From: Bacteroidetes bacterium MedPE-SWsnd-G2
Lineage (GTDB): Bacteria > Bacteroidota > Bacteroidia > Flavobacteriales > Flavobacteriaceae
Length of the DNA: 64,000 nt
Direction of reading: 5' to 3'
NCBI GenBank assembly: GCA_001874335.1
Contig: MPDE01000001.1
Span: 310,001-374,000 of the forward strand
Shown here: positions 48,937 to 54,440 of the stretch, one piece after another
Layout: each line of letters starts with the position of its first letter
Numbering within the stretch: the first letter of the stretch is position 1
The notes under the pieces: model-generated
The model's database searches: none
The model's input: the letters and a program-made list of their open reading frames with translations, nothing else
Told to the model about the DNA's origin: nothing
Translations under genes and position numbers: made by a program

Positions 48937-48967
48937 TTTGCAGTTTAGGATATTTTAGTTACATTTG
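48937..48967 (+). promoter_or_regulatory. Promoter of the DtxR-type regulator operon
   Basis: TTTG (48937-48940), of which TTG is the -33 element, and TACATTTG (48960-48967) are separated by 19 bp, an ideal Bacteroidota promoter. Transcription would begin near 48973, inside a perfect inverted repeat. Confidence 0.7.
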
Positions 48968-48969
48968 AA

Positions 48970-48995
48970 AAATTTTTAAGCATACTTAAAAATTT
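48970..48995 (+). promoter_or_regulatory. Probable operator: perfect 11-bp inverted repeat
   Basis: AAATTTTTAAG (48970-48980) and CTTAAAAATTT (48985-48995) are exact complements separated by CATA. The site starts 2 bp after the -7 box and covers the predicted start of transcription, 18 bp before the regulator's start codon. DtxR-type dimers bind such palindromes. It has no T-run and is too near the start to be a terminator. Confidence 0.7.
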
Positions 48996-49013
48996 ATTTA
49001 AAACAACAAAAGA

Positions 49014-49673
49014 ATGTCTGTAGCTATTGAGAATTTTGTCAAAGCCATTTACAAGAATGAATACCTTGACAACAAAGACACCAAACCAGGTTCCATTGCC
49101 AAAAAATTAGGCATTTCAAGTGCAGCAGCCACCGATATGGCTAAAAAACTTGCGGTTAAAAACCTATTGCACTACGAGAAATACCAAAAACTTCAATTGA
49201 CTGAGGAAGGCTATAAAATGGCGCTAAACATTATCAGGAAACATAGACTATGGGAGTCTCTACTTTTCAAGATGTTTGACATGTCATTACATGAAATACA
49301 TCGAGAAGCGGAATTATTAGAGCATGAAACTTCCGATTTCTTAGCAGATAAAATCAGTCAGTATTTAGGCAATCCAAAATTCGATCCGCATGGTGACCCT
49401 ATCCCAAATAGTGATGGAGAAATTACCACTAAAGACGATTCTTTTGCTCTTTCAAAAGCCCAAGAAGGCAAAACATTTGTCATCGCCCGATTAATGAGTG
49501 ACGATAAGGAATTCTTTGATTTTTGCGCTTTAAACAACTTAAAGTTTGGAAACACCATTACAGTAACCAAACAATTTTCGAGTAATAAAATGACTCAAAT
49601 TCAAATAAACACAAATACAATTTTACTTAATCAAGAGTTCACCTCAATTATTTATGTCAATGAAAGCAATTAA
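49014..49673 (+). CDS. DtxR/MntR-family metal-dependent transcriptional regulator
   Basis: The 219-residue protein has an N-terminal winged helix (1-65; KPGSIAKKLGISSAAATDMAKKLAVKNLL). A metal-binding and dimer domain follows (about 66-140) with the ligand-rich RKHRLWESLLF, LHEIHREAELLEHE and DPHGDPIP. A C-terminal SH3-like FeoA-type domain (about 150-219) completes it. It should repress metal uptake genes when Fe2+ or Mn2+ is plentiful. A palindrome over its own promoter suggests autoregulation. The end overlaps the porin gene by 20 bp; the unit continues through the ABC importer, so the whole importer is probably under its control. Confidence 0.9.
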   Translation: MSVAIENFVKAIYKNEYLDNKDTKPGSIAKKLGISSAAATDMAKKLAVKNLLHYEKYQKLQLTEEGYKMALNIIRKHRLWESLLFKMFDMSLHEIHREAELLEHETSDFLADKISQYLGNPKFDPHGDPIPNSDGEITTKDDSFALSKAQEGKTFVIARLMSDDKEFFDFCALNNLKFGNTITVTKQFSSNKMTQIQINTNTILLNQEFTSIIYVNESN

Positions 49674-50475
49674 CACCTATTTACTTTCAAGCCTTGTTAT
49701 CACTGTATTATCAATAACAAGCATTTCAGCTCAATCAACAGACCTTGGACCAATGGTCACTGACAGACCAGATGCTACAGAATCACCAATACTAGTTGAT
49801 AAAGGCTATATTCAAGTTGAAACTGGAGCGTTTTTCGAAACCTTTGAAGATCAAGGCATAACTCAAGACAACTACACTTTTAACACAACTCTTATTAGAA
49901 TTGGACTACTCGACAATTTAGAGCTGCGTTTGGGAGCAGATTTTGTAGAAGGAAAAACAAAAATTAACGGTGTAAAACAGGATGATGTGAGCAGCGGATT
50001 TTCCCCTTTACTTTTTGGTGCTAAAGTTGGAATTGCAAAAGAAAAAGGATGGGCGCCAGAAATTGCATTAATGGGACATGTGTATCTTCCATTTACCGCC
50101 GGTACAGATTACAAACCTCAAACTACAGGCGTAGATTTTAGATTTTCGTTAGGTCACACGCTTAGTGAACGATCTGTGATTGGATACAATCTAGGTGCTG
50201 CCTGGGGTGATGACTCATCTGAGGCTGCTTTTGTATACACTTTAGTTTATGGCTATGCTCTAACGAAGGACTTTGGCCTTTATGCCGAATTATACGGTGA
50301 TGCTCCAGAAAACAGTAAGGCCAATCATTTTTGGGATGCCGGGATGGTATATGTGGTCTCTAACAACTTTCAGTTAGACGCGACTGTAGGAACAAGTATT
50401 ACCAAAGGGCAAGATTTATTATTAAGCTTCGGATTTAGCTTTAGACTACCAACCTCATCAAAACAAAACATCTAA
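49660..50475 (+). CDS. Outer-membrane beta-barrel transporter (porin-like)
   Basis: The 271-residue protein (start taken at the second of two close ATGs, which gives a cleaner signal peptide ending SISAQ) consists of amphipathic beta strands with a terminal aromatic pattern (LLSFGFSFRLP). It opens with MVTDRPDATESP, a sequence seen in the transporter family of outer-membrane channels. Placed between the metal regulator and the metal-binding protein, it is likely the outer-membrane entry route for the same metal. Its frame may also start at 49654. It overlaps the regulator gene and ends 6 bp before the next. Confidence 0.75.
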   Translation: MKAINTYLLSSLVITVLSITSISAQSTDLGPMVTDRPDATESPILVDKGYIQVETGAFFETFEDQGITQDNYTFNTTLIRIGLLDNLELRLGADFVEGKTKINGVKQDDVSSGFSPLLFGAKVGIAKEKGWAPEIALMGHVYLPFTAGTDYKPQTTGVDFRFSLGHTLSERSVIGYNLGAAWGDDSSEAAFVYTLVYGYALTKDFGLYAELYGDAPENSKANHFWDAGMVYVVSNNFQLDATVGTSITKGQDLLLSFGFSFRLPTSSKQNI

Positions 50476-50481
50476 ACTATC

Positions 50482-51393
50482 ATGAAAAAATTAGCAGCAA
50501 TACTCATTATAATAACGGTTTTTGGTTGTAAAAAAGTTAAAAAAACAACTCACGAAAAACTAAATGTAGTTACCACAACTACCATGATTACGGATTTGGT
50601 TTCTAATATTGCCGGAGACCTCGTCAATATTGAAGGATTAATGGGAAGCGGTGTAGATCCCCACTTATTTAAAGCCAGCGCAGGTGATGTTACCAAACTT
50701 TCAGAAGCCGATGTCATTTTTTATAATGGTTTACATTTAGAAGGAAAATTAGTTGAGGTTTTCGAGAAAATGCAATCTCAAAACATTAACACTAAAGCTA
50801 TTGGTGAAATAATAGACACTAACACTCTAATTGGTTCAGAATATTTCCAAAGCAACTACGACCCTCATATTTGGTTTAACATTGACTATTGGATGCAAGC
50901 CACAAATTATGTTGTGGATGAGCTAGCTTTAATGCTTCCTGAGCACAAAGAGCAGCTACGTCAAAACGGTGATGCATATCTTGATCAATTAAAACAATTA
51001 CAAGCATCTATAACTTCAACAATTGAAACCCTTGCTCCAGAAAAGCGTATTTTAGTAACTGCACATGATGCCTTTAATTACTTCGGAAAATCATATGATT
51101 TTGAAGTGGTAGGCCTACAGGGTTTATCGACAGCAACAGAAGCCGGCGTTCAAGATGTACAAAAATTAGCTGCGTTCATTATTGAAAAGCAGATTAAGGC
51201 CATTTTTGTTGAAAGCTCGGTGCCTAAACGTACTATTGAAGCATTAAAGGAGGCTGTAAATGCAAAAGGCCATAACGTAGTAATCGGAGGGACTTTGTAC
51301 TCTGACGCCTTAGGGTCAGCAAACACGCCAGAAGGAACTTACATTGGCATGTTTACTTATAATGTAAAAACCATTGTTGAAGCCTTGCAATAA
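50482..51393 (+). CDS. Metal ABC transporter substrate-binding lipoprotein (ZnuA/MntA type)
   Basis: The 303-residue protein has a lipoprotein signal (ITVFGC) and the cluster A-I metal-binding fold. Probable ligands are His in GVDPHLFKAS (near 60), His in YDPHIWFN (near 131), His in VTAHDAFNYF (near 195) and an acidic residue in FVESSVPKRT or LYSDALG. It should capture Mn2+, Zn2+ or Fe2+ in the periplasm and pass it to the two permeases. There is no long His loop, so manganese or iron is favoured over zinc; this is inference. Confidence 0.9.
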   Translation: MKKLAAILIIITVFGCKKVKKTTHEKLNVVTTTTMITDLVSNIAGDLVNIEGLMGSGVDPHLFKASAGDVTKLSEADVIFYNGLHLEGKLVEVFEKMQSQNINTKAIGEIIDTNTLIGSEYFQSNYDPHIWFNIDYWMQATNYVVDELALMLPEHKEQLRQNGDAYLDQLKQLQASITSTIETLAPEKRILVTAHDAFNYFGKSYDFEVVGLQGLSTATEAGVQDVQKLAAFIIEKQIKAIFVESSVPKRTIEALKEAVNAKGHNVVIGGTLYSDALGSANTPEGTYIGMFTYNVKTIVEALQ

Positions 51394-51411: not shown

Positions 51412-52146
51412 ATGAAACCAATAGCTGTAAAAGTAGACGATTTGACTGTAGCGTATAACTACAAACCAGTACTTTGGGATATCGATCTCGAAATTCCTGA
51501 AGGCGTACTTATGGCTATTGTAGGACCTAACGGAGCTGGTAAATCAACACTTATCAAATCTATTTTAGGCATATTAAAACCCATTGCGGGAAGCGTAAGC
51601 ATATATGGCAAATCGTATGAAGATCAACGTTCACTTGTTGCCTATGTTCCACAAAAAGGAAGTGTTGATTGGGATTTCCCTACTACAGCTTTAGACGTGG
51701 TCATGATGGGGACCTATGGCAGTTTAGGTTGGATTAAACGTCCAAAGCAAAAGGAAAAAAAAGCCGCATTAGAAGCTTTAGAAAAAGTTGGAATGTTGTC
51801 TTTTAAAAACAGGCAAATAAGTCAATTATCTGGAGGGCAACAGCAACGTATATTTTTAGCGCGAGCCTTAGTGCAAAACGCTTCAATATATTTTATGGAT
51901 GAACCGTTTCAAGGAGTTGATGCTACTACCGAAATTGCAATAATCAACATTTTAAAAGAATTAAGAAAAGCCAATAAAACGGTAATAGTTGTTCACCATG
52001 ATTTACAAACCGTGCCTGAATACTTTGATTGGGTAACATTTTTAAATGTGAAAAAAATAGCAACAGGTCCCGTAAAAGACATATTTAATGACGATAATTT
52101 GACCAAGACCTATGGTATCAATTATCAAGTCAGTATACAAGAATAA
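51412..52146 (+). CDS. Metal ABC transporter ATP-binding protein
   Basis: The 244-residue protein has Walker [10 protein letters not shown] (near 38-46), Q-loop YVPQKG, the ABC signature LSGGQQQR (near 142-149), Walker B YFMDEPF and the H-loop VVHHD (near 196-200). It closely fits the ATPases of the metal cluster (MntB/ZnuC/SitB). It energises import through the two adjacent permeases. The next gene starts inside its last 35 bp. Confidence 0.95.
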
Positions 52147-53287
52147 AACCATTGAAACCATCGATTTTTTAGAATACATACAACTCGTTTTTACAGACTA
52201 CACCTTACGAACCATTACGTTAGGAACTGCGCTATTAGGTTCAATTTGTGGTATGCTAGGTAGTTTTGCTGTTCTTAGAAAACAATCTTTATTAGGGGAT
52301 GCCATATCTCATGCGGCCTTACCAGGTATCGCTATAGCATTTTTAATATCTGGAGCTAAATCAAGCGACACTCTTTTGATAGGAGCCCTTGCCAGCGGTC
52401 TTATCGGTACTGTTTGGATTAAGGGAATCACTTCTAAAACGCATTTGAAATCGGATACAGCTTTGGGCTTGGTACTTTCATTGTTTTTCGGCTTCGGAAT
52501 GTTATTACTAACCTTTATACAAAAGCAACCTAACGCCAATCAAGCAGGACTAGACAAATACCTTTTTGGCCAAGCCGCTACTTTGGTAGAACGCGATGTT
52601 TGGTTGATGGCAATTGTTACCGGGGTTAGTCTTTGTGTACTTTTATTGTTTTGGAAAGAGTTTAAGATTTTACTTTTTGATGAAGACTATGCTAAAACCC
52701 TTGGGTTTAACACCAAGCGCATAGACATGCTTATCACCAGTTTTATAGTAGTTGCAATTGTGTTAGGTTTACAAACTGTTGGTGTAGTACTAATGAGCGC
52801 GATGCTATTAGCGCCTGCTGCCGCTGCAAGACAGTGGACAAATAGCTTAGGTAAAATGGTTGTCATTGCATCGTTTTTTGGAGCTGCTTCAGGGATTATA
52901 GGCACAGGAATTAGCGCCACCCAAAATCAACTTTCAACAGGACCTGTAATCGTAATAATCGCATCTATATTCGTTTTGTTTTCGTTCATATTCGCACCTT
53001 CAAGAGGATTGCTTTTTAGACAATTACGTTTTATTAAAAACAGAAGAGATTTAGAGCTTCATAAAACATTGGCGTTTATGTATCATATTGCTAATACACA
53101 TGAGGATATAACCCATCCGCACACCATTAAAATTTTAAATAACTTTCAAGGGTTTACTAGAAAAACACTTCAAAAATTAGTGGATAAAAATTACGTTGCT
53201 TTGGACGGTCAAATGTGGTCGTTAACTAAGGAAGGCTTTGACACCGCTTCAAATTTGTATAACCAATTAAACAAAACAAATGAGTAG
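52112..53287 (+). CDS. Metal ABC transporter permease with C-terminal winged-helix domain
   Basis: The 391-residue protein has eight to nine membrane helices of the ABC-3 metal permease family ([25 protein letters not shown] near 51-75). It then has an extra cytoplasmic tail of about 100 residues ([28 protein letters not shown] ... [29 protein letters not shown]) that looks like the winged helix of DtxR regulators. The start overlaps the ATPase gene by 35 bp, since no suitable later ATG exists. The tail might sense metal or interact with the regulator; it is a known-looking but uncharacterised fusion in Bacteroidota. Confidence 0.9.
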
Positions 53288-54440
53288 CGCACAAATAGAA
53301 ATCCAACTGATTGCCAGTATAGTTGCGATAGCATGCGCTATACCAGGTACGTTTCTCGTTTTGCGAAAAATGGCAATGATTAGCGATGCCATAAGTCACT
53401 CCATTTTACCCGGGATAGTAATCGGATTTTTCATCACTCAAGACTTAAACTCACCTTTACTTATATTTTTAGCTGCAATCACTGGAATTATAACTGTTGT
53501 TCTTGTTGAAAAAATACAACAAACAGGTCTGGTGAAAGAAGACACCGCAATTGGGTTGGTCTTCCCTACCCTTTTTAGTATTGGGGTAATACTAATCGCC
53601 AAAAACGCTAACGATGTACATTTAGATGTAGATGCTGTATTATTAGGCGAATTGGCCTTTGCTCCCTTTGACCGTTTCTTAATATCTGGTTATGATATGG
53701 GACCTAAATCCTTATGGGTAATCGGTACAATTTTAATCATAACCTTATTGTTGTTATGGGCTTTTTACAAAGAATTAAAGCTGAGCACCTTTGACGCTGG
53801 CTTAGCATCTGCGCTTGGGTTTTCTCCTGCCATCTTACATTACGGCCTTATGACCGTGTCTTCTGTAACTACAGTAGGCGCCTTTGATGCCGTTGGTGCT
53901 ATTTTAGTTGTAGCCTTGATGATTGCTCCTGCAGCCACAGCTTATTTACTGACGACCAATCTTAAAAAGATGATTGCGTTGGCCTGTTTTTTTGGGGTTT
54001 TAAGTGCCCTTTCAGGCTATTGGATGGCCCATTGGATAGATGCGTCTATTGCGGGCTCAATAACAACTATGCTTGGTTTTATATTTTTTATGGTGTATTT
54101 ATTTGCGCCTAGTAAAGGGATTATTGCTGTGTTGTATCGTGAGAAGCAACAACGCAAGGAAGTTTTATTACTCACTTTTTTATTACATATAAAAAATCAT
54201 TCTGAAGAAAACGAACGCCATGTCAACCACCTAAACGAACATATTAATTGGCAAAAGGTAAAAGCGCAATCTGTATTAGATCTTGCCACAAAAAACAATA
54301 TGATTAGTATTGACAATAACATTGTTTCCCTGACAAAAAAAGGTGAAGACTTTACATCTCAAGCAATTGATTTTATTGTAACCAATGAAGATTCAAAAAT
54401 TGAACACATTAAGGATGATTTTTTCTTATTTAGAGGATAA
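53280..54440 (+). CDS. Metal ABC transporter permease, second subunit, with C-terminal winged-helix tail
   Basis: The 386-residue protein is a second ABC-3 permease (GTFLVLRKMAMISDAISHSILPGIVIG near 20-46). It is paired with the first as a heterodimer, as in SitCD. Its C-terminal about 95 residues (EKQQRKEVLLLTFLLHIKNHSEEN ... VLDLATKNNMISIDNNIVSLTKKGEDF) again resemble a winged helix. The start overlaps the preceding gene by 8 bp. It ends directly against the convergent exporter gene (54441) with no spacer, so transcripts of both may read into each other. Confidence 0.9.
   Translation: MSSAQIEIQLIASIVAIACAIPGTFLVLRKMAMISDAISHSILPGIVIGFFITQDLNSPLLIFLAAITGIITVVLVEKIQQTGLVKEDTAIGLVFPTLFSIGVILIAKNANDVHLDVDAVLLGELAFAPFDRFLISGYDMGPKSLWVIGTILIITLLLLWAFYKELKLSTFDAGLASALGFSPAILHYGLMTVSSVTTVGAFDAVGAILVVALMIAPAATAYLLTTNLKKMIALACFFGVLSALSGYWMAHWIDASIAGSITTMLGFIFFMVYLFAPSKGIIAVLYREKQQRKEVLLLTFLLHIKNHSEENERHVNHLNEHINWQKVKAQSVLDLATKNNMISIDNNIVSLTKKGEDFTSQAIDFIVTNEDSKIEHIKDDFFLFRG

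Follow-up and report, generated by a model that had tools for sequence, protein, structure and literature searches.

We identified a 16-bp core, TTTAAG-CATA-CTTAAA (48975–48990, unstranded), at the head of a metal-import operon of Bacteroidetes bacterium MedPE-SWsnd-G2. This core is very likely the operator through which the DtxR-family regulator encoded by the following gene represses its own operon in a metal-dependent manner, with Ala38 of the regulator proposed to face a thymine in the half-site. The operon lies in a window (the whole stretch of DNA analysed) of 64,000 nt from contig MPDE01000001.1 of assembly GCA_001874335.1 (positions 310,001–374,000, forward strand), and all coordinates refer to this window. 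To judge from sequence comparison, the site is of the streptococcal SloR type in a flavobacterial clade, and is a variant of the classical DtxR box with one base changed per arm, not a new kind of operator.

The core is the centre of a 26-bp perfect palindrome (48970–48995, unstranded), which consists of AAATTTTTAAG (48970–48980), CATA (48981–48984) and CTTAAAAATTT (48985–48995). Upstream of it are TTG (48938–48940), 19 nucleotides, TACATTTG (48960–48967, forward strand) and AA. TACATTTG is of the form TAnnTTTG, the consensus of the Bacteroidota -7 box. The box is separated from the palindrome by 2 bp, and the end of the palindrome from the ATG of the regulator gene (49014) by 18 bp. The sequence bore out what the initial annotation had described here, namely the perfect palindrome with its CATA centre, the TTG-N19 arrangement and the 2-bp and 18-bp spacings. 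An inverted-repeat search placed the arms at 48954–48980 and 48985–49011 (27 nt, 74% complementary, with the inner 11 perfect). Repeats with arms of at least 11 and loops of 0–10 occurred at seven places in the window, as compared with a mean of 0.38 and a maximum of 3 in 60 dinucleotide shuffles, so that a palindrome of this length is beyond chance, though one of several. Conservation provides the stronger evidence for an operator.

A family-level search covered 149 genomes and gave a regulator match in 134. An orthologue with at least 64% identity was present in 26 genomes, the source genome included, while the other best matches were roughly 27–41% identical. In all 26 genomes with a close orthologue, TTTAAG-N4-CTTAAA was found 35–39 bp before the start codon. 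The set was enlarged with 80 named loci to 106 loci with a regulator at least 60% identical, whose sites are referred to as class A. The motif was exact at 105 of the 106, and 103 of these copies were 35–40 bp before the start codon; the single inexact locus (L148) has ATTAAG, one base off. The initial annotation had made its proposal depend on conservation upstream of orthologues, which is clearly present. The 107 class A rows used in later counts include some species twice, as a genome and as a named contig, and distinct site windows numbered 85 (85-bp windows) or 82 (44-bp windows). Among the 85 distinct sequences the arms never varied but for a single substitution in the outermost base on the left, G and C occupied the ends of the spacer in all 85, and the logo showed a YWWR-biased centre, giving the consensus TTTAAG-YWWR-CTTAAA. 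In 105 of the 106 class A promoters a TAnnTTTG box ended 15 or 16 bp short of the dyad. The TTG of the '-33' region was not conserved in the logo of the 85 sequences.

Two further elements were seen in the class A logo. TTTTAG lies just 5' of the -7 box (48953–48958, forward strand; logo positions -22 to -17, with T81 T85 T84 T64 A78 G63 of 85). TTTAG precedes only one of the 13 TAnnTTTG boxes in the window, that of the operon itself, and none of 63 boxes in the class B promoters described below. The TTTTAG element may be what remains of a classical half-site, or else may belong to the promoter. Between the operator and the ATG, TTTAAAA (48997–49003, forward strand) forms part of a TTTAAAGC-like element that extends to 49004. 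This element is strongly conserved at a fixed distance 3' of the class A operator (+23 T in 85, +25 A in 84, +26 A in 84 and +27 G in 69 of 85; the window copy is without the G), and may be a second weak half-site or a translation signal.

The initial annotation had expected the site to recur near other metal genes. A search of the source genome with the full 26 bp and up to three mismatches returned the site itself only; as this search is too strict to serve as a test for a regulon, the 16-bp core and an 18-bp core were used in its place. The strict 16-bp core occurred once in the source genome as compared with six times for the reversed control. In the 26 genomes there were 67 strict sites, 26 of them at the regulator and 41 elsewhere, against 87 for the reversed control. 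The 18-bp core with two mismatches gave 158 matches in the source genome against 125 for its reversed control, which is near background, and TTTAG-N6-CTAAA gave 50 against 37, which is not clearly above it. Gene context was assigned to the site and 14 of 18 one-mismatch sites: 10 were inside genes and five, the site included, were intergenic. Five extra sites with a YWWR centre were found in the relatives, four inside genes and one intergenic. The intergenic site is TTTAAGTATGCTTAAA (L306; G070, C8:186912–186927), 19 bp upstream of a TonB/SusC-like gene that may be a second target in that species. Of 42 over-cut-off Nramp (mntH-like) matches in the 26 genomes, 30 were examined, and the core with up to one mismatch was absent from the roughly 700 bp before the match in all 30; this is safe for 29 of them, since L288 is cut by a contig end and its upstream side may be missing. 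Scanning of the whole Nramp loci found the core with up to one mismatch elsewhere in four of the 30. One copy is exact (L298; G006, C16:14286–14301), has the centre AATT, and lies beyond the 3' end of the Nramp gene.

With the strict core present once in the genome and no core before the Nramp genes examined, the predicted metal regulon did not appear. The regulator might nevertheless activate, or both activate and repress, a wider set of genes, the autoregulatory site being only the strongest, as MntR of Bacillus subtilis is dual (PMC11275975), and the site before the TonB/SusC-like gene and the exact, non-YWWR core past the Nramp gene would fit such an arrangement. The extra strict sites are fewer than those of the reversed control, however, only one of the five extra YWWR sites lies outside genes, and no core precedes the Nramp loci examined. 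We regard a wider regulon as unlikely, bearing in mind that weaker sites would escape these scans; a one-operon autoregulator is the simplest picture.

The palindrome also lies within the predicted leader, where the window sequence folds to an 11-bp hairpin (-6.8 kcal/mol), and it might act as an RNA structure, an attenuator or a translational control, in place of a protein site. In 82 distinct sites, complementarity at pairs 9–15 from the dyad was about as base composition predicts (for example, 46 observed against 38.3 expected at pair 9 and 28 against 37.6 at pair 14), and beyond the core the class A arms are A/T-rich. The inner six pairs showed no co-variation, the central pairs 1 and 2 were complementary less often than by chance (29 and 20 against 41.5 and 36.2), and the centre kept its YWWR bias. 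Because the outer arms are not complementary clearly above chance, an RNA hairpin is disfavoured, and we judge it very improbable. As only the inner 16 bp are conserved, we take these as the operator core; that the outer ten bases of the window copy also pair perfectly is probably a coincidence. Of the repressor site that the initial annotation had placed over the start of a DtxR-type operon, the conserved core stands and the full 26 bp does not.

The regulator gene (49014–49673, forward strand) encodes an mntR-like protein of 219 aa. It has the N-terminal winged helix and the metal-binding and dimerisation domains of the DtxR/MntR family, with a C-terminal FeoA domain (PF01325, 36.8 bits, cut-off 26; PF02742, 95.9 bits, cut-off 27; FeoA, PF04023, 24.3 bits, cut-off 23), and is the sole match to itself in its own genome at E 0.001. 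Its nearest solved relatives by sequence are XccMntR, DR2539, ScaR and SloR. Scores against the NCBIfam MntR models were all below cut-off (141 bits against 350 for NF047407, and 50.7 against 138 and 46.2 against 153 for others), so that 'MntR-like' is a functional guess. His77, Glu81, His96, Glu100, Glu103 and His104 were present in all 106 clade A rows, and position 7, which matches MntR Asp8, was Asn in all 106. The first six are candidate metal ligands, by comparison with ligand roles described in the family (PMC4805248).

Five genes follow on the forward strand. The first (49660–50475, PF13557) encodes a protein that we infer to be of outer-membrane type, with a homologue in 64 of the 80 named loci. 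The second (50482–51393, PF01297) encodes a TroA-like metal-binding periplasmic protein, whose closest solved chain is Treponema TroA (E 9.2e-84) and whose best NCBIfam match, the zinc protein AztC, is below cut-off. An ABC ATPase (51412–52146, PF00005; best NCBIfam Mn/Fe ATPase score 228 bits, cut-off 393) and two ABC-3 permeases complete the operon (52112–53287, PF00950 to residue 294; 53280–54440, PF00950 to residue 275). The NCBIfam scores for manganese, iron and zinc transport proteins were all below cut-off. These scores, the AztC match and the Asn at position 7 of the regulator weaken any assignment of the metal, for which Mn2+ is the most likely candidate. On the 5' side of the regulator are feoA, feoB and a small protein whose match to a FeoB-associated family is below cut-off. 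The two commonest gene orders (29 and 27 loci, together 56 of the 80 named loci) both hold the whole operon, with sco1, feoA, feoB, mntR, omp and the genes for the periplasmic protein, the ATPase and both permeases, and differ solely in whether the small protein was detected. The remaining 24 loci are without one or more operon genes within the stretch or threshold used.

Both permeases carry conserved C-terminal tails (52994–53284, ~97 aa, and 54105–54437, ~111 aa). AlphaFold models of the two tails (mean pLDDT 68 and 73) contain helices and a two-stranded wing, and Foldseek gave weak winged-helix matches, the best at an E of about 0.04 (CggR), with MntR 2f5c at 0.35. The tails resemble each other weakly (hhalign probability 65). 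Kinship with the regulator was considered and could not be demonstrated (hhalign probability 3). In Chlamydia, YtgCR is a fusion of permease and repressor, and the tails are possibly decayed relatives of such fusions.

The consensus box for DtxR and IdeR is TTAGGTTAGSCTAACCTAA (PMC10317159), which holds two overlapping dimer sites, whereas the class A operator is proposed to be a single dimer site. More distant regulators were examined at 84 clade B loci, a part of the family-level matches: 80 of the weaker ones, a few being second copies in their genome, and four more from the same search. The exact TTTAAG site was absent from the 300 bp upstream of all 84. An unbiased half-site search found TTTTAG-N6-CTAAAA, with up to one mismatch between the arms, at 75 of them. 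A class-level search of 247 genomes gave matches in 209; in the best 28 distant loci, which were examined, TTTAG-N6-CTAAA was present with up to one mismatch in 25 and exactly in 24. In the combined collection this form was exact at 97 of 219 regulator loci, which make up class B, and it preserves the classical box as a single dimer site. When aligned on the dyad, class A (TTAAG-N4-CTTAA) and class B (TTAGN-N4-NCTAA) have the same classical 5-4-5 spacing of half-sites and a YWWR-like centre. The difference is at the second cytosine of the classical half-site, which is T in the right arm and A in the left arm in all 85 distinct class A sites, the first cytosine being fixed. One locus in another family, L243 (G186), has a regulator 56% identical, with Ala38, and a TTTAAG-type operator with its last base changed; this may reflect lateral transfer or a deeper origin of the operator class.

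The statement in the initial annotation that the site does not look like a classical box was therefore half right: one base per arm has changed (CCTAA to CTTAA), but the geometry equals that of the TTTAG-N6-CTAAA box. Its suggestion that the site may define the motif for Bacteroidota regulators of this kind did not hold. The TTTAAG form belongs to a single clade, made up of members of one family and one locus from another, whereas TTTAG-N6-CTAAA is exact at 97 of the 219 regulator loci collected and at 24 of the 28 class-level loci outside that clade. The two classes may differ in promoter geometry as well. Of the 77 class B loci in which a site was present, 54 have their nearest TAnnTTTG 40–47 bp after the dyad, 19 have it elsewhere and four have none; a search limited to 25–60 bp after the dyad gave the 63 class B boxes counted above. 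This suggests that the operator moved from a position upstream of the promoter (class B) to the start of transcription (class A).

The operator classes were compared with the recognition helix in all 219 loci taken together, of which 107 were class A, 97 were class B and 15 fitted neither class, the last being counted for residue 38 and left out of the operator-change count. Every one of the 107 class A rows had Ala at residue 38, whereas the 97 class B and 15 unclassed rows had, without exception, Ser or Thr there. Neighbouring positions were less clean, with Ala at position 37 in 18 class B rows, Ala at 39 in seven and Ser at 35 in five; residues 34, 35, 36, 39, 43 and 60 also differ between the classes. 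In the 204 classed rows, site class followed the clade of the DtxR protein without exception. A tree built from only the C-terminal part shows a single change of operator class (SH-aLRT 100), and the co-variation with residue 38 therefore counts as one evolutionary event. The possibility that the site is read by some other regulator, for example of the Fur/Zur family, with the DtxR-type gene adjoining it for other reasons, is most improbable, given this agreement of site class with protein clade, the DtxR-box geometry and match to a proven SloR site (PMC12096823), and the presence of the strict core in its own genome solely at the DtxR-type gene.

Residue 38 corresponds to Thr40 of IdeR (1fx7; equal-length match of residues 25–134 to 27–136, offset 2). 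Thr40 touches the second base of CCTAA, where a thymine methyl would force it to move (PMC8464063). Class A sites keep the first cytosine and lose the second, while class B sites keep the second and leave the first free. A change from Ser or Thr to Ala would make room for the methyl group of the thymine. We propose, with somewhat less than even confidence, that residue 38 is the specificity switch in this branch of the DtxR family, in both flavobacteria and streptococci, Ser or Thr going with NCTAA and Ala with CTTAA half-sites. With only the first cytosine retained in class A, and only the second needed in class B, a CCTAA site would be readable by both and could have formed a bridge between them. 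IdeR tolerates C1-to-T or C2-to-T but not both; it binds an all-CTTAA site with only a mild loss, and the authors favour indirect readout (PMC8464063). On both these grounds, Ala38 may instead be permissive or irrelevant.

At the position of residue 38, Ala is found in SloR and ScaR too. By parsimony its presence in flavobacteria and streptococci takes two changes, whereas a tree that joins the two Ala38 forms had a higher likelihood (p-AU 0.797). As the joint tree is not rejected, we do not claim an independent origin by convergence; a common one is compatible with the tree but not required by it. Genome G033 carries, beside a class A regulator with a TTTAAG site, a second DtxR protein (~35% identical) with Thr38. 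No TTTAAG site accompanies the second gene. Upstream of it, AGTTAGATGACTCTAACA comes nearest to the class B box but does not match it fully, and the locus was left unclassed. In G084, G118, G145, G133 and others, a second DtxR-like match lies in an open frame of ~343–368 aa adjoining the regulator gene, and perhaps represents a different protein, part of which resembles the regulator.

A conserved site, kept at a constant distance from the promoter box and from the start codon, thus precedes the operon, and residue 38 co-varies with the operator class. The following mechanism, in which binding, metal, repression and the Ala38 contact are predicted, is very probable on this evidence. When metal, most likely Mn2+, is plentiful, a dimer of the regulator would bind the palindrome. 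As this begins about where transcription should, the bound dimer would block RNA polymerase and jointly shut down the regulator gene, the outer-membrane-type protein and the Tro-type metal ABC importer. Scarcity of metal would release the dimer. The half-site is that of DtxR and IdeR with the second cytosine replaced by thymine and the first cytosine fixed.

With these results, a considerable group of marine Flavobacteriaceae has an assigned operator motif for its metal regulators. Two operator classes are seen among Bacteroidota DtxR proteins, which are mainly one base pair per arm apart and track one helix residue. A two-by-two comparison of Ala or Ser at residue 38 with T or C in the half-site would bear on how the DtxR family reads DNA, a matter on which the authors of the IdeR and SloR studies weigh direct against indirect readout (PMC8464063, PMC12096823).

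The TTTAAG motif is not new to biology, being known experimentally from streptococcal SloR. The MtsR site may be TTAAGTTAACTTAA, of the same kind as the CTTAA-type site, although this string was not found as an MtsR site in the literature searched. The search, made largely without subscription journals, recognised no operator motif for a DtxR/MntR protein of the Flavobacteriaceae. Within the Bacteroidota, PgMntR of Porphyromonas gingivalis is likewise a DtxR-family protein with FeoA domains encoded in a metal-import operon, and binds the promoter of its own operon, more tightly with Mn2+; unlike the window regulator it has two FeoA domains and an FeoB2-type transporter in place of an ABC importer, and the available text of that report defines no operator sequence (PMC4805248). 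TroR of Treponema, a DtxR-type repressor, controls the troABCD importer through an 18-bp dyad (PMC2628430), and TroA of that importer is the closest solved relative of the window periplasmic protein. The operator sequences differ, and troR is last in troABCDR whereas the regulator is first in the window operon (PMC2628430).

The closest parallel is with SloR of Streptococcus mutans, a DtxR-family protein with Ala at residue 38 that controls manganese import (PMC12096823), although it comes from a different phylum and its likeness to the window regulator is distant (84 bits, E 1e-22). SloR binds TTTTAAGCATACTTAACA (SRE1, mntH promoter) at 60 nM in gel shift; EDTA, altered arms or replacement of the spacer by CCCAAT each abolish the shift. 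The SloR authors treat the effect of the spacer as unsettled, and consider indirect readout (PMC12096823). Positions 48974–48991 of the window (TTTTAAGCATACTTAAAA) are identical to SRE1 at 17 of 18 bp, with the same GCATAC spacer. TTAA-GCATAC-TTAA (48976–48989) has the 6-6-6 form, TTAA-N6-TTAA, of a SloR-type operator, and conservation suggests that it too may depend on its spacer. In terms of half-sites, the G and C at the two ends of the spacer represent the first cytosines. Under the present reading, the CCCAAT replacement removed the first cytosine of both SloR half-sites, in which the second was already T, and a switch at residue 38, if correct, would explain the need for the spacer. SloR sites are grouped, bound cooperatively and overlap the -35 region (mntH) or the -35 and -10 regions (sloABC) (PMC12096823), whereas the window has a single strict site, over the point where transcription of the regulator's own operon is predicted to begin.
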